Of a stretch of 45,418 nucleotides of DNA, positions 10,620-31,904 are shown piece after piece. The translations under genes and the position numbers were made by a program. The first letter of the stretch is position 1. Every line of letters begins with the position of its first letter. The notes under the pieces are model-generated. The model was given only the letters and a program-made list of their open reading frames with translations. It was not told the origin of the DNA and did not search any database. This DNA comes from a virus, in IMG/VR virus record IMGVR_UViG_3300032298_000063, positions 1-45,418 of that record; one strand, given 5' to 3'.

Positions 10620-12302
10620 ATGGCAATTCATGGTTATCCCGGTCAGATAATAAGCGCGACACCTCCGTCTACCTTTTCTGGTATTTGGACGCTTGGGAGA
10701 TTTCCTCTTTACGGCACAACTGTCTCTCAAGTATTTACTTTTACAGAAACGTGGGTATGTCCTACTGGCGTTACTTCTGTAGATTATTTGGTTGTAGCTG
10801 GTGGAGCTGGTGGCGGTTCTCAAGGGGCTGGAGGTGGAGCAGGTGGTTTTAGAACTGGAACTGCATTAGCTGTTACGCCCGGAACGTCTTACACGATTAC
10901 TGTGGGCAGTGGAGGGGCTGGGTCAGCTTCAACTTCTGCTGCTGGTAATAATGGGGGTAATTCCTCAATTGGTTCCCCTGCTTCTATTACATCTAATGGT
11001 GGTGGTGGCGGAGGGTCTAGAAGTGCAGCAGCAGCAAGTGGTGGCTCTGGCGGTGGCGCAAACGGTAATGCAGGAGCAGCAGGTTCTGGTAACACTCCTT
11101 CTGCATCTCCATCGCAAGGCAATAATGGAGGGGCTGGTAGCTCAGGGCCTGTTGAATCTTCTGGTGGTGGAGGCGGTGCAGGCGCAGTTGGTGGTACTGG
11201 TCTTAGTAATGTTGGCGGTGATGGTGGTTCTGGATTAGCCTCATCTATTTCTGGTTCTGGCTTTTATTATTCTGGCGGCGGTGGCGGAAGTATTAGTACA
11301 AGTAGCGGCACAGGCGGTTTAGGTGGAATTGGTGGTGGTGGAAATGGAAATGTAACCAATAACGGTAACGGCACAGCAGGAACTGCATCACTAGGTGGTG
11401 GTGGCGGTGGCGCTCCTCTTGGGTTTACAGGCGGCGCAGGCGGTTCAGGCATAGTCATCCTTAGATACACAATACCAAGAGTTGTTGGCAATGTAATTCG
11501 TTTTACTTCTACAACCACATTCCAAATACCTAACGGCATTAACAGCGTTGATTATTTAGTTGTTGGCGGTGGCGGCGGCGGCGGTAGAAGCGGCGGAGGA
11601 GGTGGTGCTGGCGGGTTTAGGACAGGTACTTCACTAGCTGTTACTGCTGGTGCTACATACACTATTGCTGTTGGTGCTGGAGGCTCTGGTGCTTCAGGAA
11701 GTTTAAGTGCTGGCGTAAGTGGTGGGAATTCTACCTTTAGTTCAATTACATCTGCTGGTGGTGGAGGTGGAGGCGGTATTGCTGTAGGCGGCGCTCAACA
11801 GGCTGGAGTTGCTGGCGGTTCGGGTGGTGGAGGTGGACACTCAGGAGGGGGACAACCCGGTGGAGCTGGCAATACTCCTGCCTCATCAAGCCCTCCAGAT
11901 TCTAATGCTGTGCAAGGTACTGCAGGTGGAAGTTCATCAGGGAGTAGTCCATATGCAGTAGGAGGGGGTGGCGGGGCTACTTCTGCTGGAACCGCTGGCG
12001 CTGGCGGGGCATCTGGTGCTGGTGGCGCTGGCACTGCTTCATCTATTTCAGGAACAGCTATAACGTATGCTGGCGGTGGCGGAGGTGGAAGTGGCGCTGG
12101 GCCATTTACTGCTACTGCTGGCGCTGGTGGCGCTGGTGGCGGTGGTGCTGGTGGTTCTGGCGCTCTTGCAGCAGGTGCGGCTGGAGTTAATGGCTTAGGG
12201 GCTGGAGGTGGCGGCGGAACATACCCAGATTCCCCATCTGGGTATGCTGGTATTGGTGGCAATGGTGGCTCCGGTATTGTTATCCTCAAATTTAATGCAT
12301 AA
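10620..12302 (+). CDS. Glycine-rich adhesin-like protein, two domains
   Basis: This 560-residue protein begins HGYPGQIISATPP and then carries two long glycine-rich domains, about residues 39-283 and 290-560. Each opens with a VDYLVV strand followed by poly-Gly, then AGGFRTGT, a YTI-V-V-G-GG strand, an NGGNS-type box and a SGIVIL strand at its end. Glycine-rich sandwich domains of this kind form receptor-binding tips in some phages, such as gp38-like adhesins; that comparison is inference. The gene next door is a paralogue with the same layout. RBS AAGGGG precedes ATG 10620 closely. Confidence 0.8.
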   Translation: MAIHGYPGQIISATPPSTFSGIWTLGRFPLYGTTVSQVFTFTETWVCPTGVTSVDYLVVAGGAGGGSQGAGGGAGGFRTGTALAVTPGTSYTITVGSGGAGSASTSAAGNNGGNSSIGSPASITSNGGGGGGSRSAAAASGGSGGGANGNAGAAGSGNTPSASPSQGNNGGAGSSGPVESSGGGGGAGAVGGTGLSNVGGDGGSGLASSISGSGFYYSGGGGGSISTSSGTGGLGGIGGGGNGNVTNNGNGTAGTASLGGGGGGAPLGFTGGAGGSGIVILRYTIPRVVGNVIRFTSTTTFQIPNGINSVDYLVVGGGGGGGRSGGGGGAGGFRTGTSLAVTAGATYTIAVGAGGSGASGSLSAGVSGGNSTFSSITSAGGGGGGGIAVGGAQQAGVAGGSGGGGGHSGGGQPGGAGNTPASSSPPDSNAVQGTAGGSSSGSSPYAVGGGGGATSAGTAGAGGASGAGGAGTASSISGTAITYAGGGGGGSGAGPFTATAGAGGAGGGGAGGSGALAAGAAGVNGLGAGGGGGTYPDSPSGYAGIGGNGGSGIVILKFNA

Positions 12303-14002
12303 GGTGAACGATGAGTAATTATCCCGGTCGGATTATCACCAAGGCTCCGATAACAATATCAACCACATCAGCTTCAGGTATCTGGACGCTGCAACAGGCG
12401 CTGCAAGCTATTAAATCAGGTGTGTGGCCCGGTATTGGCTCGACTGTTACTACCAGCTTTACTTCTTCTGGCTACTGGACTGCACCTGCTGGTGTTACAG
12501 AGGTAGATTATCTGGTGGTGGCTGGCGGTGGTGGGGGTGGTGTAAATGGCGGTGGCGGTGGAGCTGGTGGGTTTTTAACTGGTACTGCGCTAACTGTTGT
12601 GCCGGGCACTACGTATGCTGTATTGGTTGGAGCAGGAGGCGCTGGCGGAACAACTGAAAATGCCACTACTTCACCGTCTGGAGTTAGTTCTGTATTTGCA
12701 TCAATCATTGCTACTGGTGGTGGCGGTGGTGGAAATCGTTCTGGCGGTTTAGGTGGCTCTGGTGGTTCTGGTGGTGGAGGAGCATCTGGTACAGGTTCAA
12801 CTGTTGCTGGTGGCACGGGGAACACCCCATCGACTACACCGTCACAAGGAAATAATGGTGGAAGTGGTGCGGCTACAGGAAACGTTGCGAATGGTGGCGG
12901 CGGCGGTGCTAATCCAACTACCGGTGTTGGCGGGAGTGGAGTTGCAAGCCCACAAACATCAGGTAATGGTGGAAACGGTACAGCATCTACTTTAAGTGGG
13001 TCTAGCGTTACTTACGCTGGAGGCGGTGGTTCAGGAAATAGTCAAGTAACTGCTGGAACAGGTGGAACTGGTGGCGGGGGAAATGGGTCAGGCCCTAATA
13101 TTGCTGGTGTCGCAGGAACAGCTAATACTGGCGGTGGCGGTGGCGGTAGTGGTGGAGGCTCTCCACAACAACCCGGCGGTGCAGGCGGCAGCGGTATAGT
13201 CATCATCAGATACGTAGCCCCTGCCATTGGAGTAATTTCTTTTAACAGCACTTATACTTTTACTATGCCACAGGGCGTTACTAGTGTTGATTATCTAGTT
13301 GTTGCTGGCGGTGGTGGTGGCGCTATGAATCAAGGCTCTAATTCTGCTGGCGGAGGCGGTGCTGGTGGTTTTAGAACGGGTACTGCACTACCTGTTAGTT
13401 CTGGAGCTACATATACAATAACCGTTGGTGGTGGTGGAGCAGGAAGTCCGACAGAAAACGGCGATGGAGCAAACGGAGGAAATTCTACGTTTAGTACCAT
13501 TACGTCCAACGGCGGTGGCGGTGCTGGACATAACATTACAAATGGTTTGAATGGCGGTTCTGGTGGTGGTGCTGGCAGCCAAAGAACTGGGGGTTCTGGT
13601 AACACTCCAAGTCAACCATCAGCAGGTGGTAATGGCGCACCTGCCGTAGCTTACCAAGGATTTAATGGCGGCAACGGCAGTCCATCTTCTGCTGGTGGTG
13701 GTGGCGGTGGAGCTGGTGCTGCTGGTTCAACTGCTCCATCAAATTCAGTAGGAGGTAACGGAGGAAACGGTCAAGCATCAACCATTACTGGTTCTAGTGT
13801 TACCTATGCTGGTGGCGCAGGTGGTCAAGGAAATACTACTGGCGGTACTGGTGGTTCTGGCGGAGGAGGCAACGGCGCAAGTAACAATACTGGACATACA
13901 GCGGGGTCTGCATATCTTGGTGGTGGCGGTGGGTCTGGATATACAAATCCGTCTTCAGGACAAAATGGCGGTTCAGGCATTGTTATTCTTAAATTAAACT
14001 CA
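10733..14002 (+). repeat. Four diverged copies of a glycine-rich domain
   Basis: Four units of roughly 750-800 bases run in series, about 10733-11480, 11490-12299, 12455-13220 and 13235-14002, two in each adhesin gene. They share the order of boxes: VDYLVV, AGGFRTGT or AGGFLTGT, NGGNS in most, GNTPS or GNTPA, YAGGGG and SGIVI. The protein order is kept although DNA has drifted. Boundaries are approximate. Confidence 0.75.
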
Positions 14003-14005
14003 TAA
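12311..14005 (+). CDS. Glycine-rich adhesin-like protein, paralogue of the upstream gene
   Basis: This 564-residue protein repeats the design of its neighbour: a short NYPGRIITKAP leader, a linker with SGIWTL as in the upstream protein, and two glycine-rich domains (about residues 48-300 and 305-564). The boxes GNTPSTTPSQGNNGG and YAGGGGS, and the end SGIVILKLNS, match positions in the other copies. It starts nine bases after the upstream stop with GGTGA as site. The pair probably arose by gene duplication and may give the phage alternative or combined receptor-binding tips. Confidence 0.8.
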   Translation: MSNYPGRIITKAPITISTTSASGIWTLQQALQAIKSGVWPGIGSTVTTSFTSSGYWTAPAGVTEVDYLVVAGGGGGGVNGGGGGAGGFLTGTALTVVPGTTYAVLVGAGGAGGTTENATTSPSGVSSVFASIIATGGGGGGNRSGGLGGSGGSGGGGASGTGSTVAGGTGNTPSTTPSQGNNGGSGAATGNVANGGGGGANPTTGVGGSGVASPQTSGNGGNGTASTLSGSSVTYAGGGGSGNSQVTAGTGGTGGGGNGSGPNIAGVAGTANTGGGGGGSGGGSPQQPGGAGGSGIVIIRYVAPAIGVISFNSTYTFTMPQGVTSVDYLVVAGGGGGAMNQGSNSAGGGGAGGFRTGTALPVSSGATYTITVGGGGAGSPTENGDGANGGNSTFSTITSNGGGGAGHNITNGLNGGSGGGAGSQRTGGSGNTPSQPSAGGNGAPAVAYQGFNGGNGSPSSAGGGGGGAGAAGSTAPSNSVGGNGGNGQASTITGSSVTYAGGAGGQGNTTGGTGGSGGGGNGASNNTGHTAGSAYLGGGGGSGYTNPSSGQNGGSGIVILKLNS

Positions 14006-14016
14006 GGAGAGTGAGA

Positions 14017-14271
14017 GTGGAGTCAAAAATTTATCAACTCTACGGTATCGACACAGCTATGCACTTACTGCGCCCCGGCGCTAAGTGGGAAATCAGCAAC
14101 ACCATGTTCACACGCTGGGAAGACCCGCGCCCGTGTCCGACTATGGAAGAAGTGATGGAAACGATGGAGAAGATAAAGGCGTTTGAAGACAGTATCAATA
14201 CGATTTGGACTCAAGAACAGATAGAAAAAATGCGTGGTCAGCAAGAGATATACGATAAGGCGGTTGCATGA
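14017..14271 (+). CDS. Small phage protein near fibres, possible assembly factor
   Basis: Two GTG codons are close together. The one at 14017 is chosen because it lies six bases after AAGGAGA, whereas 14011 abuts it. The 84-residue acidic product includes YGIDTAMHLLRPGAKWEISN, then RWEDPRPCPTMEEV and a helical C-terminus. I recall this protein following fibre genes in other aquatic phages. Conserved Trp and Pro residues suggest a folded core. A tail-fibre assembly or chaperone role would fit its position, but no function is established. It overlaps the next gene by ATGA. Confidence 0.72.
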   Translation: MESKIYQLYGIDTAMHLLRPGAKWEISNTMFTRWEDPRPCPTMEEVMETMEKIKAFEDSINTIWTQEQIEKMRGQQEIYDKAVA

Positions 14272-14876
14272 ACATAAACAACCTATTTCCAACAGCGGTA
14301 GGTTTTTCTAAGTTAGACCGTGAGCTAACGGAAGAGGAATTAAAGTTTATTAGAGAACAAGTGCGTTACCCAAACGAAGGCAATACGACTAGCGAAAACC
14401 GAAAGATTTTGAAGTCTGTTGAGATGACAGAAATTCGTGAGTTTATTGAAGACGCGATGTTAGATTACTTTAAGTCGGTGTATGCGCCTAAGCATGATGT
14501 AACGCCATACATAACACAGTCGTGGGCTAATTTTACTGATAAGGGTCAGTACCACCATAAGCATCAACACCCTAACAGCATTATCTCTGGTGTGTTTTAC
14601 CCACAAGCAGATAGAGAAACAGACAGAATTTATTTTTACAAAGATGGTTACGAGCGTATTAAGATTCCAACAGAAAACTGGAACCATTGGAATAGTGAGA
14701 GTTGGTGGTATGAGACAGGTACTGGAGATTTAATTATTTTCCCATCTGACTTGACGCATATGGTTCAGACTAAGCAGGGCGACGGGACACGCATTAGCAT
14801 TTCGTTTAACACCTTTGTAAAAGGGTACATTGGTTCGGACGAGAGTCTGACAGGTTTACATTTAGGAGAAGAGTAA
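14268..14876 (+). CDS. 2OG-Fe(II) oxygenase family protein
   Basis: This 202-residue protein resembles the 2OG-FeII_Oxy_5 group often found in cyanophages and other aquatic phages. Iron ligands are probably within HHKHQHPNS (H99 and H101) and H164 in DLTHMVQ, with R175 in GTRISISFN for 2-oxoglutarate. The N-terminus opens with LFPTAVGFSKL, usual for the family. It should hydroxylate a substrate using oxygen and 2-oxoglutarate; the target is unknown. Position after the fibre genes suggests a fibre protein, but a host or nucleic acid target cannot be excluded. Start and stop overlap both neighbours. Confidence 0.85.
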   Translation: MNINNLFPTAVGFSKLDRELTEEELKFIREQVRYPNEGNTTSENRKILKSVEMTEIREFIEDAMLDYFKSVYAPKHDVTPYITQSWANFTDKGQYHHKHQHPNSIISGVFYPQADRETDRIYFYKDGYERIKIPTENWNHWNSESWWYETGTGDLIIFPSDLTHMVQTKQGDGTRISISFNTFVKGYIGSDESLTGLHLGEE

Positions 14877-20859: not shown

Positions 20860-21120
20860 ATGGCACTTGCGCTTGTATATGACCCTCGTTATCACACATG
20901 GGACTCTTGGACGGGTCTTATGTGCGAGGCTTATGCGGCGCAACAGCTATCAATAAATACTCCCGAAGAGGAGTGGAAACAGTGGGCAGCAGGTTTAAAG
21001 GCTATCGACGTTTTTGTAAACGAAGGTATCCCCGGCCCTTATATATATGAGAACTGGCAAGACTGGGCAACAGCACTAGTCGGAGCAGTCAATCAACCAT
21101 CAGAGGACACGGCAACATGA
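20860..21120 (+). CDS. Small Trp-rich phage protein
   Basis: This 86-residue acidic protein starts one base after the nozzle stop and overlaps the acyl carrier gene by ATGA. It has many Trp and Tyr residues (YHTWDSWTGLMCEAY, EEEWKQWAAGLKAID, YENWQDWA). I recall small proteins of this type next to nozzle genes in aquatic podoviruses. No catalytic motif, zinc site or membrane segment is seen. Its place at the head of the acyl cassette could be chance. Its function is unknown. Confidence 0.68.
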   Translation: MALALVYDPRYHTWDSWTGLMCEAYAAQQLSINTPEEEWKQWAAGLKAIDVFVNEGIPGPYIYENWQDWATALVGAVNQPSEDTAT

Positions 21121-21398
21121 ACTTCTTAGACATATTTAATTATGTGGCGAAGGTCGCTCGACCTGCGCACACTGTAGTTGCCTTCGCTAACGCGATGGAA
21201 GATAAACTTGAGGACATTGGTTTGGACAGCCTAGATGGCTTGGTCATGCTTATGTATTTTGATGAACTCTATGGTATTGCCGATGACGATAGCAAAGAAT
21301 GGTCGCCAGCGTCTGTTCAGGAATTGCACGACTTAATCATGGCAAACAAAACTAAAGAGCCAGCATCAATGGAAGAAGTCAAAGAGGTGTGCAGATGA
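21117..21398 (+). CDS. Phage-encoded acyl carrier protein
   Basis: This 93-residue acidic protein has the hallmark of an acyl carrier protein: LEDIGLDSLDGLVMLMYFDE (residues 31-50), where S38 in the DSLD motif would receive a 4'-phosphopantetheine arm. The helix after the serine (GLVMLMYFDELYGI) is the usual recognition helix. The N-terminus is slightly longer than a bacterial ACP. It would need a host phosphopantetheinyl transferase because none is encoded in this window. It shares ATGA overlaps with both flanking genes and is followed by a beta-ketoacyl synthase, its natural partner. Confidence 0.88.
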   Translation: MNFLDIFNYVAKVARPAHTVVAFANAMEDKLEDIGLDSLDGLVMLMYFDELYGIADDDSKEWSPASVQELHDLIMANKTKEPASMEEVKEVCR

Positions 21399-22504
21399 TT
21401 TATCTCACACACTATCGCACGGCTTGCACACAAACCGTAGAGTTGTTTGACGACATTATCTACCCACAAAAGGTAAATTGGTTCCCAGATACCTATAACC
21501 GAACTAAGTCTGGTTTAGTGTATGCGCCACATAAGTTGGCGGAGAAGGTGCTTGACCCTGAGTTGCTTGCTTACCTGCGGGAGAATCCTGTTGGCAAAAC
21601 GGCGTTTATTCTTGCTGGCGGCAACGCGCATTTTGCAGGCATTGGTCAGAGGGAGTACAACTCTCGCCTAACTTATACCTATAAGTTCCTGCCGTTCACG
21701 TTGACACAGGTCTATGCGGGTCGAATTGCGCAGTCCTGCGGCAATATGGATATGGTTACAACTGATGCCAGCGCCTGCGCCTCAAGCCTTAAAGTAATGA
21801 TGGACGTAGTCAACCTTATTGACTTTTATGACTATGAGCGCGTCATTGTGCTAACGGTTGAGGATGGTGTCTCAAACGCAGTTTTAGAGTTTTTTGGTGA
21901 CGCCAAGGCTGTACTTACCCAAAAACAAGAAGATTTGGGCATAAAGCCATCCGCTTTTGATTCGGTTAACTTTGGGTTCCGCGTTGGTCAAGGGGCTGCT
22001 TTGGCTGTATTTGAGTCTCAGTCCGTAACGGAAGAGCAAAGTACGGCTCCCCATGCTTGTTTGGTTGGTGCGTACAGCGCGTCTGAGCGCTCAACCAACG
22101 CGATTGGGCAGTGTGAGGACGGCGAGGGGTTTATTAAAGCTATTGAAGGTGCTATGCACTATGGCAATGTATCCCCAGATGAGATTAAAATAGTGAAAAC
22201 CCACGGCACTGGAACGGCGTCCAACAACAAAGCTGAAAAGAACGCTTTGACCCAAACGCTAAAAGCATTCGTTGCAACCTCGTATAAGCAGAAAATTGGT
22301 CATACGATGGGCAGTAGCGGGCTGCTTGAGACGCTTTTACTATTAGACGATATTAAGTCTGGTGTTGTTCCAGCGATTGAAAACCGAACCGAAACCGACT
22401 CGGTATTCCTTTCGGAATCGACAACACCACCTGATGGCTTGATAATGAGTCTGGCGGCTGGAATGGGCAACATCTATTCCGCTGCAATTTTTAAGGGGAT
22501 GTGA
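21395..22504 (+). CDS. Beta-ketoacyl-ACP synthase (FabF/KAS-like)
   Basis: ATG 21395 lies seven bases after GAGG and overlaps the acyl carrier stop. The 369-residue product keeps the whole catalytic set of a condensing enzyme: C128 in TTDASACASSLK, H270 in KTHGTGTASNN, and H303 in KIGHTMGSSGLLE with K300 just before. The FabF order Cys-His-His and the spacing fit KAS II or polyketide synthase domains. It is about 40 residues shorter than FabF and lacks the usual VVTGMG start, so the N-terminus is diverged. It should extend an acyl chain carried by the adjacent carrier protein. Chain length and product are unknown. Confidence 0.9.
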   Translation: MIYLTHYRTACTQTVELFDDIIYPQKVNWFPDTYNRTKSGLVYAPHKLAEKVLDPELLAYLRENPVGKTAFILAGGNAHFAGIGQREYNSRLTYTYKFLPFTLTQVYAGRIAQSCGNMDMVTTDASACASSLKVMMDVVNLIDFYDYERVIVLTVEDGVSNAVLEFFGDAKAVLTQKQEDLGIKPSAFDSVNFGFRVGQGAALAVFESQSVTEEQSTAPHACLVGAYSASERSTNAIGQCEDGEGFIKAIEGAMHYGNVSPDEIKIVKTHGTGTASNNKAEKNALTQTLKAFVATSYKQKIGHTMGSSGLLETLLLLDDIKSGVVPAIENRTETDSVFLSESTTPPDGLIMSLAAGMGNIYSAAIFKGM

Positions 22505-22947
22505 TGTTAGTCGATAGCAAAGAGAAACAACTTGGGCAAGAAGCGATTGTAATGATTGCGGCTCAAGAGACTAAATCTCAACACCCTGCGTCAACAGTTT
22601 ACGCTGCTCTGGTTAAAGAGATGAATATGCCCGGCACTTCTATTCTCCGCGAGGGCAATACTCTTTTTGTTGTTCATCATGCTGAAGGTCGGGTGGGAAT
22701 CTTCCGTGCATTAAATGCAGACACAGCCCGTAATTATCTAGAGAGTTCATATGCGTTTATCCAAGCCGCATACAAAATGGGTTTTGACACCCTAGTAAGC
22801 GATTTTGAAGACCCAACGATTATGAATATTTTTAAAGCTATTGGTCGCAATCCTCCGCAAGAGGGTATGGGATACAAGGCTGTAAGAACAAAAAACGGAT
22901 TTCGCGTCACCGTGAAGCTAGGCCCAAAGCGGGCTGAGAGGGCATAA
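22504..22947 (+). CDS. GNAT-like protein, possible acyltransferase
   Basis: ATG 22504 has AAGGGG five bases upstream and overlaps the synthase stop by one base. The 147-residue product has a strand pair (NTLFVVHHAEGRVGIFRAL), a long helix (YLESSYAFIQAAYKMGFD, about residues 80-97) followed by a strand (TLVSDFED), a helix (PTIMNIFKAIG) and a final strand (GFRVTVKLG). This order is like the second half of a GNAT fold, as in T7 gp13-type internal proteins. I recall this family as a common phage protein of unknown role. A glycine-rich acyl-CoA loop is not obvious, so activity is uncertain. Confidence 0.6.
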   Translation: MLVDSKEKQLGQEAIVMIAAQETKSQHPASTVYAALVKEMNMPGTSILREGNTLFVVHHAEGRVGIFRALNADTARNYLESSYAFIQAAYKMGFDTLVSDFEDPTIMNIFKAIGRNPPQEGMGYKAVRTKNGFRVTVKLGPKRAERA

Positions 22948-22949
22948 AA

Positions 22950-24695
22950 ATGAGCGCAGTAGTCGATTTTGTTTCAGACGTTGTTGAAGGTGTTGGCGAT
23001 TTTATCGGCGACGTTGTTGAAACGGTTGGCGACGTTGTTGAAGAAGTTGGTAACTTTGTTGAGAACGTCGTTGAAAATGTTGTTGATACTGTTCAAGCGG
23101 TAATTGAAGACCCGCTTCCAACGCTGCTTTCTTATGCGGGTACTTTTGTTGGCATCCCCCCAGCAGTCACAATGGCTGCAATTACTGCTGCGCGTGGCGG
23201 CGACCTTCAAGACATTGCTTTGTCAGCAGGCACAGCATATTACGCGCCCCAAGTTGGAAATGCTCTGTCTTCTACTGTGAATTCATCATTTATTAATGCT
23301 GGTATGAACCAAGGATTTTCGCGAGTTGCAAGCGAATCAATTAGCAATGGTTTTGTTAACGGAACAATTTCTGAAGTTAGGGGCGGTGATTTTAACGACG
23401 GATTTGCTGGCGGTTTTACTGGTAGCTTGGTGTCTGGCGGTGTAAGAGAGGTTGGTAACTACGTTAAGCCTGATGTAATTGCAATGGCGCAGAACAATGG
23501 CTTGGATTTACGAGATGCTACTGCTGTATACAACGCAGGAACAAGGGCGGTATCTGCTGGTTTAAATGCTGAGATTACTGGCAGGGGTGACTTCCTTACG
23601 TCATTTACTAACAGCGCTGTTGGTTCTGGGGTTGATTATGGCGCACGTTCGTTAAACGCAAGTATTGATGAACAATTTAAATCTGCAATAACTCAATGGG
23701 GTAAAGAAGATGGTGAGGACAGTTTAATTGCAGATGCGGTTGAAAGCACAGCAGAAGGCGCAGGCATTCCTGACGAACTTGTTAATCAAGTTGCCGTTTC
23801 AAATCTTGGATTTGATGGCATGGCTGAAGCCAAATCAGAAGAAACTACACCTAGTTTGACTGATGTTTTATCTGACAATTCAGATTTTAATAATCAAGAT
23901 ACTAGCGGCGAGACTGCCGTTTCAGATATTTCTGTATTGTCTGACGATATATTAGCTAATGCTCCAGAAGCAGATACTGTAGAAAATTTTTATGATTTGC
24001 TTGGTGAAGATACAAATCAAGATACAAATGAAGATATAAATATTGATACAACCGTTTTAGCTAATGCGACCGAACCTACGGAACCAACTCAGGTTGCTGA
24101 AGCGGCGGATGAAGAAGCATTACCAAGTGATGTTTTAGATATTTATGCGTCTACTAGTGATGCTCAAAAAGATAAAGCAGAGCAACCTAGAGGCGCTTTA
24201 GCTATTGCTTCGGATGCTCCACAAGACCTTGACGTTACTAGAGCAGAAGTTAAATCTGACTTACCTATTACTGAAGCGCCTATTGCTGGCAATTTGTTGA
24301 CATCGGATTTACCTACTGAGCAACCAGCGGGTGGGTTAAATGCAATGTCTATGAAAGACGCTGCTCAAAAAATGGCCGATTCTTTAGGTTTAAAAACTAA
24401 CGATATTACAAAACCACTCGTTGCGAATGTTGCAAACTTAGTTAAGTCTACGCTTAAAGTAGGTAAAAAACCTGTTCCTCGTAGACCTGTTGTTGCTCGT
24501 AAGAGTGGTTTACAGATGGCAAAAGCAGCGCCTAGAAGGCCAACGCCACCACCAATAAAAATGGATGTGGCTAAGTTGACGCCAATTCAAAAAGCGCCTC
24601 AGTCTGCGCCAGCGCAAAAATTATCGAGTTCCGCAAATTTAACGCCAGTTAGCGATATTGCGAGTTTAACTTCAATGCTTAAAAAGTCAGGATAA
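22950..24695 (+). CDS. Large internal virion-type protein with amphipathic N-terminus
   Basis: This 581-residue protein starts with a striking amphipathic repeat (residues 1-52) in which DVVEGVGDFIG, DVVETVG, DVVEEVG and NFVENVVENVV follow one another in 7- and 11-residue steps. A hydrophobic Ala/Gly-rich stretch (PPAVTMAAITAARGGDLQDI, residues 70-89) follows; I recall this from phage virion proteins. The middle is acidic and low in complexity, and the C-terminal 120 residues are basic and Pro/Lys-rich. The gene leads a block of large proteins before the transglycosylase. A role in the internal core or DNA ejection is inferred. Confidence 0.7.
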   Translation: MSAVVDFVSDVVEGVGDFIGDVVETVGDVVEEVGNFVENVVENVVDTVQAVIEDPLPTLLSYAGTFVGIPPAVTMAAITAARGGDLQDIALSAGTAYYAPQVGNALSSTVNSSFINAGMNQGFSRVASESISNGFVNGTISEVRGGDFNDGFAGGFTGSLVSGGVREVGNYVKPDVIAMAQNNGLDLRDATAVYNAGTRAVSAGLNAEITGRGDFLTSFTNSAVGSGVDYGARSLNASIDEQFKSAITQWGKEDGEDSLIADAVESTAEGAGIPDELVNQVAVSNLGFDGMAEAKSEETTPSLTDVLSDNSDFNNQDTSGETAVSDISVLSDDILANAPEADTVENFYDLLGEDTNQDTNEDINIDTTVLANATEPTEPTQVAEAADEEALPSDVLDIYASTSDAQKDKAEQPRGALAIASDAPQDLDVTRAEVKSDLPITEAPIAGNLLTSDLPTEQPAGGLNAMSMKDAAQKMADSLGLKTNDITKPLVANVANLVKSTLKVGKKPVPRRPVVARKSGLQMAKAAPRRPTPPPIKMDVAKLTPIQKAPQSAPAQKLSSSANLTPVSDIASLTSMLKKSG

Positions 24696-24698
24696 AAA

Positions 24699-27194
24699 AT
24701 GGCTATTCTAAAAAAGCGCACGTCAAACAAACAAATTCCTGATGCTGGGGCGCTTGACCGCGCTCCTTTGAATAGCATTATTCAAGGTTTAAATAAAAAA
24801 CCAAATATTAGTAATGGTAAAAATACAGCAACTTCTACAACAAAGCCAACTACTACAACTACGCCAAAAACTCCTGCAATTACTACTAAGACGCCTGACA
24901 CTAAGACATCAATAACTACGCCTACTTCTGGTATTACTAAACCAAAACTTACTAATACAACCGCAAAAACTAACACAGCGACAAACAAAGTTTTAACTGC
25001 GCTTGCTGGCGCTGGTCTTGGCTTAGGGACAAAAGCAATTGTTGACAAAATAAATAAACCAACAACGACAAAACCTGTAACGTCGGTTACTAAAAAACCT
25101 GCTGTTTCCAGCGGGAAGGCTCCTACTGTTCCAACAAAAAAACCGCCTGTAGTAGATATTCCGAAGATTCCTACAAAGCCTACAACGCCACCTAAAGTAC
25201 CAACAAAACCGACAACGCCTACAGCGCCAGTAGACAAGGGTCAAACTTTTCCTCTTAAAGATGACACTGAAGTTGAATACACAACAGACTCTTTGGGTAA
25301 CGTATTCAAAGTTATGCCAGACGGAACGTATGAGCTTTATCGTGCGGCTGAGGTTGATGAGACTCCTGCCCCTAATGAAGATTTGACCGACGATGATTAT
25401 ATAGTTGATGAACAGATAAATGCTTTACCAGAAGAGCCTGCATATGATTCTCAATATTTCCAAGACGAGGATGGAAATATTTACACAATGGATTCCAACG
25501 GCGACTATATTTTGTATGCTAATGCTGATGGTTCATTACCTGACGAAACAGTTTATGACGAAACAAATCCTTTTGAAAATAACACTTGGATTGACGACGA
25601 AACTGGCGCTGTATGGGAAGCTGACGCAAATGGTAATTGGTCAACCGATTTTGACTATGACAGCTATTGGAATTCATTAACAGAAGACCAGCCATTGCCA
25701 GACGAAATTGATTACATTGATTATGGCAACGATACAGACTATACAGATTATGGTAGTTATGACTATGGTGACTACAATTGGAAGCGCGGGGGATTAATTA
25801 CTATGATGAAAAAAGGCGGTGTAGCTAACTATGTAGGAGGCGGCTATGTTGATAACGAAGATGGAACCTTTAGTGGTTACGACTCCAATGGGGATTATGT
25901 AACTGTTGATGACATGGGCTACGAAATTTCCCGCGAAGTTCAAGATAAATATGTTGGGCAGACATTTGATACATCCGACATGGTCAAGAGAGATACGCCA
26001 GTAGCTATGGCTACTAATACGGCTGCTGATGATGATTCAAGTGACTTTGTTACAGAAATAGAAAACCCAGCCGAAGAAGGCGACGAGGGTTATGGCTGGC
26101 GTTATTTTTCTGACGGTACTGTGATTAGTCCTTCAGGACAATATTATCAGGGCGACGAATTAATTTACGACCCAATTCAATCAGCGGGTGGTGGTGAGCG
26201 TTCTTGGTATGACAAACTTGGAAGCACGCTATCACAAGGCGCTGGCACTGTTTCTAAATTGGGCAACGAGGCATTAAGTGGCATTACTAGTGCGTTGGGT
26301 ACAACCGCTGGTGCTGCTGGCGCTGGTGCATTGATTGCTACATTACTTGGTCAAGATTTTAGTGGTGGTACTGGTGCGCAAAACCAAGGTCTGGATATGT
26401 CGAAGGTTGGTCTTATCAACCCACGCACAACCGATTTTGGTATTGGCCCAACCCGATATGTTGGTTATGAAGACTACGGCACTGACCTTGGTGAATACAC
26501 GCCTAATGAAGAGTTGTTGCGTAACTTAAATGCACCGGGGTACAACCCTGTCAACGAAGGCGACTATGGTTATGAGCCAGTTGATGAGACCGAAACAACG
26601 ACTCCAAAAATGGCGTCTGGTGGCTTGTCGTCAATGGCTACACCTGTGTCGTCTTACTACACGTTTGGTCAGCCCGCAGACATCTTGGCAAACTTGGGTA
26701 TGCGCCCACAGCCTCCAATGAATTCGCCTGACATGATGACTCAGGTTGGACAGCAAAAGCCTCCTGAGCAAGCACAACAGCAAGGCTTGCCGCAGCAGAT
26801 GCCACCACAAATGATGCAACAAAATCCACAAGGGATGCCTCAGCAGGGCATGATGCCGCAACAGCAGGGTATGCCTCCGCAAATGCGTAAGGGTGGATTG
26901 CCTCACGTTTCTAACGTCCCTATGGTTGAGGGCCGTATGGACTTCCGTAACGGCTCTGCGGTGCATGGAGAAGGCGACGGTCAGTCTGACGACATACCTG
27001 CAATGCTTGCTGACGGTGAATATGTAATTGACGCTGAGACGGTTGCGCAGATTGGCAACGGCTCAACTAAAGCAGGCGCACAGGCTTTGGATAAGTTCCG
27101 TGAGGGTATTCGCGCTCATAAGCGTTCCGCTCCTCTGAACAAGATACCGCCAAAAACCAAGGCGTTGACTTCATACCTTAAAGGAGCGAAATAA
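24699..27194 (+). CDS. Large modular virion protein with low-complexity domains
   Basis: This 831-residue protein is a patchwork. Residues 1-185 are Thr/Pro/Lys-rich. An acidic Asp/Tyr-rich part (about 190-360) contains repeats like EDGNIYTMDSNGDYILY and ETGAVWEADANGNW. Then come KRGGLITMMKKGGVANYVGG, further acidic Asp/Gly-rich text, a Gln/Met/Pro-rich stretch (about 680-730), and a conserved-looking C-terminal domain with GEGDGQSDDIPAMLADGEYV and IDAETVAQIGNGSTKAGAQA. I recall that last domain at the end of many phage structural proteins. It probably belongs to the ejection or internal core machinery. The next ATG overlaps its stop. Confidence 0.72.
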   Translation: MAILKKRTSNKQIPDAGALDRAPLNSIIQGLNKKPNISNGKNTATSTTKPTTTTTPKTPAITTKTPDTKTSITTPTSGITKPKLTNTTAKTNTATNKVLTALAGAGLGLGTKAIVDKINKPTTTKPVTSVTKKPAVSSGKAPTVPTKKPPVVDIPKIPTKPTTPPKVPTKPTTPTAPVDKGQTFPLKDDTEVEYTTDSLGNVFKVMPDGTYELYRAAEVDETPAPNEDLTDDDYIVDEQINALPEEPAYDSQYFQDEDGNIYTMDSNGDYILYANADGSLPDETVYDETNPFENNTWIDDETGAVWEADANGNWSTDFDYDSYWNSLTEDQPLPDEIDYIDYGNDTDYTDYGSYDYGDYNWKRGGLITMMKKGGVANYVGGGYVDNEDGTFSGYDSNGDYVTVDDMGYEISREVQDKYVGQTFDTSDMVKRDTPVAMATNTAADDDSSDFVTEIENPAEEGDEGYGWRYFSDGTVISPSGQYYQGDELIYDPIQSAGGGERSWYDKLGSTLSQGAGTVSKLGNEALSGITSALGTTAGAAGAGALIATLLGQDFSGGTGAQNQGLDMSKVGLINPRTTDFGIGPTRYVGYEDYGTDLGEYTPNEELLRNLNAPGYNPVNEGDYGYEPVDETETTTPKMASGGLSSMATPVSSYYTFGQPADILANLGMRPQPPMNSPDMMTQVGQQKPPEQAQQQGLPQQMPPQMMQQNPQGMPQQGMMPQQQGMPPQMRKGGLPHVSNVPMVEGRMDFRNGSAVHGEGDGQSDDIPAMLADGEYVIDAETVAQIGNGSTKAGAQALDKFREGIRAHKRSAPLNKIPPKTKALTSYLKGAK

Positions 27195-28216
27195 TGGCTG
27201 GCTTATTTCAGGGTGACCCACTACCCGCGCTAACCAAGACCACGGAAGCCCAACAAACGGCTCCAGAGTTTTATACCAATTATTTGCAAGATATTGCCAA
27301 CTTAGGGCAGAACGCTGTTCAACAGGGTGGCATTGCTGGATTCAGCCCACTGCAACAGCAAGCCTTTCAAATGGCTCCAGACGTTGCGTTTGCTGGCGCT
27401 GGGTCGCTAGGTGCAGCTTCTCAATTATTAGGCGAGGCGGGCGCTACAACCGTTCCTGACGTCATTGCTGACTACATGAATCCGTACACCTCAAGTGTGG
27501 TGAACGAGATGGGTCGCTTGAGTAATCGGAATATTCAAGAGAATATTCTGCCAAACCTTGGTGCGGCGGCTGTTGGTTCTGGTCAATTTGGTTCGCGTCG
27601 TCAACAACAAGTTACTGGTAACGCTTTGCGCGACATTCAAGCCGACTTGTTAGGCAAGCAAATGCAAGCGCTACAGCAAGGATATACAACCGCTGGCACG
27701 CAAGCGCAGGCTGATTTGTCTCGCGCCTTATCTGCGGGTCAAGGGTTTACTAATTTAGGTCAAGAGCAACAACAGCTAGGTACGGCTGGTTTAAAAACTA
27801 TGTCTGACTATGGCGCTCAACAACAAGCTCAAGGTCAAAAGCTGCTTGACTACCCAATGGCGCAAGCACAACAGTATGCAAAACTCATGCAGGGCTATCA
27901 AATCCCGCAGGGTACAGTCACGCAAACAACTGGCTCAGAGGGCTATTCAGGCAGTCCTTTAAGTCAAATCGCTGGCTTAGGTTCTTTGGTTGCCTCGTTA
28001 TTCCCAAGCAGTTCTGGGTTGACAGAAGCGCAAATTGCAGCCGCTGAAGCTGATGCTGCTTATAAGAGAAGCCTAACAAAAGCTAATGGTGGCGTAATTA
28101 ATAAAGCGCATGGAGGTGGCGTTCGATTAGCTGATGGCGGTATGGCTCCATCTGGCGCAGAATATCACGACGGCAACGGAAATTTTTACGATGCCGATGG
28201 CTACTTAGTGAGGTAA
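27194..28216 (+). CDS. Putative ejection or internal virion protein
   Basis: This 340-residue protein is Gln/Ala/Gly-rich and mostly helical. YMNPYTSSVVNEMGRLSNR (residues 95-113), followed by AVGSGQFGSRRQQQVTGNAL, is a segment I recall from ejection-type proteins of environmental podoviruses. The C-terminal 60 residues carry KANGGVINKAHGGGVRLADG, a KKGG-like box, and a short GNFYDADGYLVR end reminiscent of repeats in the upstream protein. It begins with TAATG coupling and the next gene follows after three bases. A role in channel formation during DNA delivery is inferred. Confidence 0.7.
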   Translation: MAGLFQGDPLPALTKTTEAQQTAPEFYTNYLQDIANLGQNAVQQGGIAGFSPLQQQAFQMAPDVAFAGAGSLGAASQLLGEAGATTVPDVIADYMNPYTSSVVNEMGRLSNRNIQENILPNLGAAAVGSGQFGSRRQQQVTGNALRDIQADLLGKQMQALQQGYTTAGTQAQADLSRALSAGQGFTNLGQEQQQLGTAGLKTMSDYGAQQQAQGQKLLDYPMAQAQQYAKLMQGYQIPQGTVTQTTGSEGYSGSPLSQIAGLGSLVASLFPSSSGLTEAQIAAAEADAAYKRSLTKANGGVINKAHGGGVRLADGGMAPSGAEYHDGNGNFYDADGYLVR

Positions 28217-30011: not shown

Positions 30012-31904
30012 ATGGATGAGAAAAAATTTAACGCTCTTTCAAAGTCACAGCAAGAAGTAGTAATTAAACTTGCTGCGGAAGCGGAGCGCCAAGGCGTCAA
30101 CCCTGAATTAGTAATTGCTATTGCTGAAGCTGAGACGGGCGGTAAGTTTTCTCATTACAGTGGGGACAAGGTATTGAAGTCGCCTGCTGGTGCAATGGGC
30201 TTAATGCAAGTTATGCCTGATACTGCAAATCTATATAACAAGAAATTTAATCTTGATATTGACCCTACCGATGAAGACAGCAATATCAAGGGTGGCGTTT
30301 TTATTCTTAAAGATTTGCTGACGCAATACAAAAGCCCTCGTACTGCTGTTGCGCTGTATAACGCAAGTCCCAAAGCTGTATCGACTTTTATTAAGTCATA
30401 CGAGACAGACCCAGATAAAGCAATTCTTTCGTTGCCAGAAGAAACTCGCAACTACTCTTTGCGTATTTCCAAAAACTTTAATTTAGATGACGACAAAGAG
30501 ACTGGTCTTTTGCCAGCCCAAGGCGAGGCAGATGCAGCAAAATCAACTAGCCCGTTTGCTGATTTAAAAAATGAATTTGCAGAAACAAATAAAAAATTAA
30601 AAGAAGCAGAAGGTAACACTACTACAACAACTACCGATGAAGAGCAAAGAGAAATACCCATCGCTGGTGGTGTTGCTGGTGCGGCTGCAAACTTGTTTTT
30701 GCCGCCACTGACAAACCCTGAAATGCCTGTAAAGATTGATACAGGTAAAGCTCAAGAGGCAAACCTAACGGCTCAAGACAAGTTGGAATTAGCGCGTCGT
30801 AATGTGCAACAGTTTGTTCCACAGGGCGTACAAAATCTTGAGAGCGCTTTCCAACAAAGTCAGGGCAACCTTGATTACCTTAGAAATGAGCAGCGTTTAG
30901 CTGAGGCTCGTTTGCGCGGTTTACCACGGACTGCTCCTTTAGGTTCAGACCAGCCAATATTTGGCTCACCAATTGAAGATTCTTTAAGTATTCTTGGAGG
31001 TTCAAACACTCGCACAAACGCTCGTTCTGGTAGAGCGAGTGGGCCAAAAGTTGAAGGCGATTCTGGCGTTAGGAATTGGACTATTGCTGAGGCAGGTCAA
31101 ACTCACGAAATGCCAGAAGCCATTCTTGATATGGCGACTAATAAAACGGCAGACGACCCAAAAGGCGGTAAATTTTTAATTAATAAAGATTTAGAAAATC
31201 TTGAAAAAATTAAACGTATTGGTTTGGGTGAATATGGTTTGGCTCGTACTGAGGGTGGCGTACAGTTGGCGCTACCTCCAGAAACCGTGGCAGAACGTCA
31301 GGCTGATGAAGAGCGACGCGCTAATGAAAATCAAGAAGAATTAAATCGTCGAGCCGAAGAGGCTCGTTTGATGCAGGCAGCGCAAGTGCGTCAGTTAGAA
31401 ATGGAACGCCTTGCCCGCGAGGCTGAATTAGAAAATTTACGTCAACAGCGTTCGCAGGCAGGTCAACAGCATAACGCCCTTACTGGGCAGTTAAGACAGG
31501 CGCGACCTTTACAACGTGCGCTGACTAAAGCTGAAGCCGATGCTGAAATTGCTCGTCGCAAGTTGGCGCGGGCAAACGAACAGCCAAGTGCTTTGACTCG
31601 ACCTCTTGATGTTGCTGGCTATAAGTCGGCAAAAATAGGTGCGTTGCCAAGAACCGTTGTTGGCGGAGTCACAGGAACTCTTGGCGTAATGAGTTATCAG
31701 GAAGCGTTAGAACGGTTCAAGGCTGGCGACACTAGCGAAGCCGTTTTAAAGGCTCTAGAAGCGGGCGCTGCTGGCGCTATGCTTGTACCCCCAGCGGGTA
31801 AGACTTTGAAGCGTGTGCGAGGCGCTGGTGCGCTTGGTGCGGGTGCGCTTGGATTGTTTGAGGCAGGAAGGTTCTTATTGAAAGACGCACAGCCAGACGA
31901 GTAA
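30012..31904 (+). CDS. Virion-associated lytic transglycosylase
   Basis: This 630-residue protein has an N-terminal SLT-type transglycosylase domain: catalytic E41 in IAEAETGG, GAMGLMQVMP (60-69), NIKGGVFIL (91-99) and AVALYNASP (112-120), all as in the slt group. It should open peptidoglycan during DNA entry. Residues 190-580 are charged, Gln/Glu/Arg-rich and largely coiled coil, and the last 60 residues contain an Ala/Gly-rich possible membrane-active stretch (LEAGAAGAMLVPPAGKTL). It closes the late operon and is followed by a strong terminator. Confidence 0.88.
   Translation: MDEKKFNALSKSQQEVVIKLAAEAERQGVNPELVIAIAEAETGGKFSHYSGDKVLKSPAGAMGLMQVMPDTANLYNKKFNLDIDPTDEDSNIKGGVFILKDLLTQYKSPRTAVALYNASPKAVSTFIKSYETDPDKAILSLPEETRNYSLRISKNFNLDDDKETGLLPAQGEADAAKSTSPFADLKNEFAETNKKLKEAEGNTTTTTTDEEQREIPIAGGVAGAAANLFLPPLTNPEMPVKIDTGKAQEANLTAQDKLELARRNVQQFVPQGVQNLESAFQQSQGNLDYLRNEQRLAEARLRGLPRTAPLGSDQPIFGSPIEDSLSILGGSNTRTNARSGRASGPKVEGDSGVRNWTIAEAGQTHEMPEAILDMATNKTADDPKGGKFLINKDLENLEKIKRIGLGEYGLARTEGGVQLALPPETVAERQADEERRANENQEELNRRAEEARLMQAAQVRQLEMERLAREAELENLRQQRSQAGQQHNALTGQLRQARPLQRALTKAEADAEIARRKLARANEQPSALTRPLDVAGYKSAKIGALPRTVVGGVTGTLGVMSYQEALERFKAGDTSEAVLKALEAGAAGAMLVPPAGKTLKRVRGAGALGAGALGLFEAGRFLLKDAQPDE

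Follow-up and report, generated by a model that had tools for sequence, protein, structure and literature searches.

A conserved acyl carrier protein and ketosynthase gene pair in a phage lineage, possibly a dedicated acyl-supply module

An acyl carrier protein (ACP) gene and a beta-ketoacyl synthase (KS) gene form a real unit in a lineage of phages, and both are under strong purifying selection (dN/dS about 0.07-0.09). We propose, as an evenly balanced judgement, that the two products act as a dedicated NodF/NodE-like module that would divert host type II fatty acid synthesis. The window, that is, the whole stretch of DNA analysed, is a single IMG/VR virus record of 45,418 bases, in which the ACP, the KS and a GNAT-fold protein (ORF3) occupy positions 21117-22947 inside a podovirus-type virion block (Table 1). 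A sequence-only reading had assigned all three genes to one shared pathway because they overlap. Its coordinates, overlaps and flanking virion genes were confirmed, and an ACP with an intact KS is indeed co-conserved in a phage lineage, whereas the step from overlaps to a three-gene pathway was not supported as stated.

Table 1. Positions in the window of the ACP-KS-ORF3 genes, key codons and selected virion genes
Feature	Position	Strand	Remarks
Conserved upstream gene of the virion block, 86 aa, Trp-rich	20860..21120	+	Directly 5' of ACP
ACP, 93 aa	21117..21398	+	S38 codon 21228-21230, in GLDSLDG
Beta-ketoacyl synthase, KAS I/II-like, 369 aa	21395..22504	+	ATG 21395
KS catalytic codon, Cys128	21776-21778	+	
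KS catalytic codon, His270	22202-22204	+	
KS catalytic codon, Lys298	22286-22288	+	
KS catalytic codon, His303	22301-22303	+	
KS gate-loop Met357	22463-22465	+	GMGN replaces GFGG
ORF3, 147 aa, GNAT fold	22504..22947	+	Without CoA pyrophosphate loop
581-aa protein, amphipathic N-terminal repeats and hydrophobic stretch	22950..24695	+	First ejection-type gene
340-aa protein	27194..28216	+	Weak phrog_4287 DNA ejection protein match, E 0.0041
630-aa virion protein, SLT transglycosylase domain	30012..31904	+	PF01464 6.9e-17

The flanks of the trio consist of virion genes (SU10-type adaptor, tail hub/stabilisation-type, ejection-type and SLT transglycosylase). Judged by position and composition, the 581-aa product would have an ejection-type role and is a possible acylation target. 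Its N-terminus, with VVxxVxDVV-type amphipathic repeats followed by a hydrophobic stretch, recurs in homologues (L306, L308, L208 and others), the remainder of the protein being highly variable. Elsewhere in the window, a 2OG-Fe(II) oxygenase gene (14268-14876, plus strand; PF13759 1.3e-21, phrog_81) directly follows tail-fibre-type genes, and a putative 2OG-Fe(II) oxygenase is also present in the GenBank phage record MW202545. The neighbouring plus-strand ORFs at 10620-12302 and 12311-14005 (560 and 564 aa; phrog_2295 matches 3e-95 and 6e-97) represent a probable tail fibre gene that has been duplicated in tandem.

As a single sequence the ACP is weak (TIGR00517, E 0.0012), and there was no curated match to PF00550 for the protein of the window; among its relatives 15 of 28 matched PF00550 at E<=0.1 (best 0.0033). 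The family profile retrieves solved ACPs (E 1.5e-4), and the AlphaFold2 model (pLDDT 93) has the helical ACP fold. The top PDB fold matches of the model are carrier proteins or carrier-containing complexes (prob ~0.9, E 0.05 or worse), and with none at E < 0.001 they are consistent with this assignment, not significant alone. Because family profile, model and fold matches all point to a carrier protein, we regard the product as an ACP. Residues D37, S38 and D40 of the D37-S38-x-D40 motif were unchanged in 120 distinct sequences, and the modification serine that had been proposed is likewise supported.

The KS start at ATG 21395 fits the homologues, which open MIYLT..., and the earlier numbering of Cys128, His270 and His303 is correct from this codon; from GTG 21389 the protein would have 371 aa, with these residues at 130/272/305. 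Both Pfam matches are above the cut-off of 20.8 bits (PF02801, 1.1e-14, 54.8 bits; PF00109, 1.3e-8, 35.2 bits) and solved FabF structures are also matched. The NCBIfam fabF match has an E-value of 1.4e-29, but TIGR03150 scored 103 bits against a cut-off of 493.75. Secondary-metabolism KS families, such as AmcF and polyketide synthases, match at moderate scores. The catalytic residues align with Cys163, His303, Lys335 and His340 of E. coli FabF, and the Cys, His, Lys and His are present in all 323 full-length KS sequences (undeduplicated; ~200 distinct genes). KAS enzymes carry out decarboxylative condensation on ACP-bound substrates, and because the catalytic set is intact, such a reaction is implied for the phage KS. 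It shares with FabF/FabB (KAS I/II) the fold and the Cys-His-His-Lys set, but differs from them in its ~20% identity to the E. coli enzymes, its sub-cut-off equivalog score, its shorter and divergent N-terminus and its gate loop. In FabF, the GFGGTN gate loop controls acyl-ACP entry (PMC7138838). The phage family has GMGN(I/V)(Y/F) instead (Phe400 to Met, Gly402 to Asn, Asn404 to Tyr/Phe), with GFGG absent and GMGN found in 317/317 scored sequences. The altered loop suggests a changed substrate choice, and, taken with the divergent N-terminus, it means that the substrate of the KS, and even its reaction, could differ from those of FabF/FabB. By sequence, then, we place the protein in the KS superfamily as neither FabF nor FabB. 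It is the most conserved of the compared proteins (mean pairwise identity 0.67 vs 0.45-0.56); median dN/dS was 0.066 for KS, 0.089 for ACP and 0.067 for ORF3, each comparable to neighbouring virion genes.

The relatives, mostly metagenomic fragments, are IMG/VR sequences together with the GenBank phage record MW202545 (L081) and a single MAG contig (L208); several loci duplicate one contig, and 200 distinct KS genes were left after their removal. The KS family occurs on hundreds of IMG/VR contigs of a broad, mostly aquatic lineage, with exactly one copy per genome in 19/19 large genomes. A motif scan of 84,980 prokaryote species genomes found one relative, on a contig that is titled Balneolaceae MAG and bears the virion block itself. 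The eight-residue patterns used may overlook distant relatives, and the term 'phage-only' is restricted to this KS subfamily, which on this evidence looks phage-specific. A general-motif scan gave 599 stretches, which may include other ketosynthases and were excluded from the family count. Recent capture of a host FabF is unsupported, given the ~20% identity to the E. coli enzymes and the single relative among the scanned genomes. KS matches in records of Listeria, Enterococcus, Staphylococcus and other phages (22-31% identity) appear to be bacterial FabF from records that are contaminated or derived from the host, and were set aside.

The search for partner enzymes took in three families in the 19 large genomes, in which no match was obtained to PF01648 (ACPS), PF00698 (Acyl_transf_1) or PF13561 (adh_short_C2); the host-scale MAG G029 does carry ACPS. 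A complete phage pathway was rejected on these grounds, and no other acyl-processing enzymes were identified in the phage genomes. With the phosphopantetheinyl transferase, malonyl transacylase and FabG-type reductase all unmatched, the host must supply the remainder. Within the scope of these families and genomes, the phages have what is expected of a NodFE-like arrangement, namely a dedicated ACP and KS without the remaining pathway.

The order ACP-KS-ORF3 was kept in 294/343 loci, or 168 of the 200 distinct KS genes, the remainder being mostly interrupted by contig ends, which bears out conservation of the trio across relatives. In the window, ACP and KS overlap by 4 nt (ATGA) and KS and ORF3 by 1 nt (TGATG). 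Among the relatives only the ACP/KS overlap is conserved (4 nt, ATGA or GTGA, in 188/192), the KS/ORF3 junction is variable, and overlaps are frequent throughout the virion block; the overlaps therefore do not support a pathway of all three genes in the form proposed. Distance correlations across 105 genomes, which are descriptive since the pairs are non-independent, were 0.93 for ACP-KS, 0.82 for KS-ORF3 and 0.83 for ACP and the upstream gene. After two virion genes were controlled for, the partial correlations were 0.78 (the highest among the tested pairs), 0.61 and 0.29, respectively.

Several loci (L162, L166, L167, L172 and L209) have ACP-KS without ORF3 alongside, and in L166 the pair sits in a replication-type module. 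Conversely, L306, L308, L309 and L313 have a virion block in which ACP-KS is missing between the upstream gene and ORF3, with the 86-aa gene keeping its place. The record that contains L306 (G001) has ACP-KS next to the helicase and primase genes that accompany it in L166, 18 kb away from ORF3. G001 retains both, with ACP-KS beside the helicase and primase genes, and the pair was therefore relocated as a unit and kept; a loss of ACP-KS in L306 is rejected, and L308, L309 and L313 are fragments, in which its absence cannot be scored as loss. In a tree, L166 and L172 group with a support of 0.99, and L344 is nearest L303, with 0.75 for all four, so one or two relocations are possible. Movement of ACP-KS without ORF3 in one clade, where ORF3 stays at the virion locus, tells against the three-gene unit and weakens a three-gene reading. 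A link to ORF3 keeps part of its footing, with both retained in G001, the CoA loop missing and co-divergence with KS above that of ACP with the upstream gene. KS and ORF3 may still both be needed, though not as a single operon. It should be noted that the ORF3 searches used motifs from KS-linked members and are biased to linked cases. The relocated ACP-KS of L166 and L344 is followed by a conserved gene of ~100 aa (RLSDE...EGWLPW...; 54% identity between the two), possibly DNA-binding. Where ACP-KS is absent, the upstream gene and ORF3 are separated by a ~160-bp noncoding stretch (TTCGGGTCTG...AGGCCT...GGACCCG), similar in L306 (1128-1287), L308 (4282-4441) and L313 (7829-7992) and possibly a terminator or promoter region.

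The catalysis, host partners, product, consumer and timing of the ACP-KS module are what we infer here. A host transferase would arm S38 of the phage ACP with phosphopantetheine, host FabD would provide malonyl groups, and the phage KS would use its Cys-His-His(-Lys) set in a Claisen reaction that lengthens acyl chains bound to the phage ACP; where required, these chains would be reduced by host FabG/FabZ/FabI. The outcome would be an acyl-ACP pool of a defined length or oxidation state that is not carried by host ACP, and the product is probably a special fatty acyl group made from host supplies. Such a pool would need a consumer, for which the phage's own ORF3, with its GNAT fold, is the foremost candidate. 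There is a precedent in NodF and NodE, an ACP-KS pair that alters acyl chains from host synthesis, which are then handed to an acyltransferase (the NodE and NodF labels are swapped in PMC5080398). Like the phage pair, rhizobial NodF/NodE (with NodA) comprises a dedicated ACP and KS that depend on the remaining fatty acid enzymes of the cell. NodA takes the acyl group from the ACP, a part for which ORF3 is a candidate only. The proteins belong to other sequence families and the phage pair is phage-borne, with no chitin oligomer pathway, so that the analogy is functional only. The module is favoured by the fixed catalytic residues, low dN/dS, ACP/KS overlap, high ACP-KS distance correlation, the NodF/NodE precedent, joint relocation, single copy and absence of the partner families; the ~20% identity to FabF/FabB, the GMGN loop and the divergent N-terminus stand against it.

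The GNAT-like character given to ORF3 by the sequence-only reading was upheld by its AlphaFold2 model (pLDDT 90, topology HHEEEHEHEE) and by Foldseek searches against PDB and BFVD, the PDB matches being GNAT acetyltransferases (prob 1.0, E about 5e-4, TM about 0.55). It has no Pfam match. The Q/RxxGxG/A CoA pyrophosphate loop is absent after strand 4 (the pattern occurs anywhere in the protein in 9/105), and a near-invariant LNAD..N lies in the strand4/helix3 turn, at the site of the usual CoA loop. A GNAT-like fold without CoA-binding elements is also described for RtxC/HlyC, and in the RtxC structure ApxIC the missing elements are taken to explain the use of acyl-ACP (PMC8339906). On this model ORF3 would be a CoA-independent acyl-ACP acyltransferase that lipidates a phage protein, likeliest one of the ejection proteins encoded directly downstream, which would thereby be helped into the host envelope. 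The position of ORF3 directly 5' of ejection-type genes, the adjacency of the trio in most loci, the KS-ORF3 partial correlation relative to that of ACP with the upstream gene, and the retention of ACP-KS and ORF3 after relocation in G001 all favour virion acylation. Nevertheless we consider it unlikely, as ORF3 has no sequence match to RtxC/HlyC and no invariant His (a near-invariant one is missing from L081, L154 and L164), ACP-KS is in the replication module in one clade, and ORF3 might serve in virion assembly without being an enzyme. Membership of the RtxC/HlyC family is rejected for want of the conserved histidine. T7 gp13, an internal virion protein, is likewise encoded by a small gene just 5' of ejection protein genes, but it has no detectable relation to ORF3 and T7 has no ACP-KS pair at that site; homology to it (PF11090) was rejected (hhalign probability 0.12%, E 0.47; no Pfam match). 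ORF3 is a plausible candidate partner of ACP-KS, and it could just as well have a structural role.

That the pair boosts or shifts bulk host fatty acid synthesis (chain length, unsaturation) during infection, without a dedicated product and with ORF3 an unrelated virion protein, is a somewhat stronger contender, though still doubtful. It fits a KAS I/II-like KS, the location of the pair within the replication module of one clade, and the report of other fatty-acid genes, including fabF, fabG and fabZ, in the portions covered of viral gene surveys (PMC10653327, PMC12783922, PMC8224337). Raising bulk synthesis would not call for a divergent ACP encoded by the phage, and the deeply divergent, apparently phage-only KS is unlike a recent host copy. 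Production of a signal or defence compound of 3-oxoacyl or polyketide-like type, released in infection, is in our view improbable: the moderate matches to AmcF and polyketide synthases speak for it, but PF13561, PF00698 and PF01648 are absent from the 19 large phage genomes and ORF3 is not recognisable by sequence as a LuxI-type synthase. ACP is a hub protein, and the phages have no complete pathway by the three-family search, both of which are compatible with interference, in which phage ACP and KS would mainly tie up AcpS, FabD, malonyl-ACP or regulators that bind ACP, with host lipid synthesis or signalling slowed as a result. This too has little likelihood, since a decoy does not need a KS whose Cys, His, His and Lys are fixed in 323 sequences. 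The sequence-only reading would have been undone by a missing KAS fold, a broken active site or genes apart in all relatives, none of which was found.

In the excerpts of literature covered, a phage-encoded ACP is known from two cyanophages (with its synthetase) and from Vibrio phage R16F, and a Rhodobacteraceae prophage carries fabG-acpP-fabF, arranged as in the host fab operon. Within the same excerpts of open-licence work, no description of a conserved ACP-KS pair as the core of a phage lineage was found. What appears to be new is thus the conserved, phage-specific pair, isolated phage ACP and fabF genes being already known. Viral auxiliary genes are mostly copies of host metabolic genes that are gained and lost; here, in contrast, a deeply divergent KS with an ACP alongside appears to be almost wholly confined to phages and is present once per genome in all 19 large genomes, with every catalytic residue preserved. 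Its conservation implies that a specific acyl product is important to infection, and with ACP-KS-ORF3 the idea that phages attach lipid to proteins of their own becomes concretely testable.
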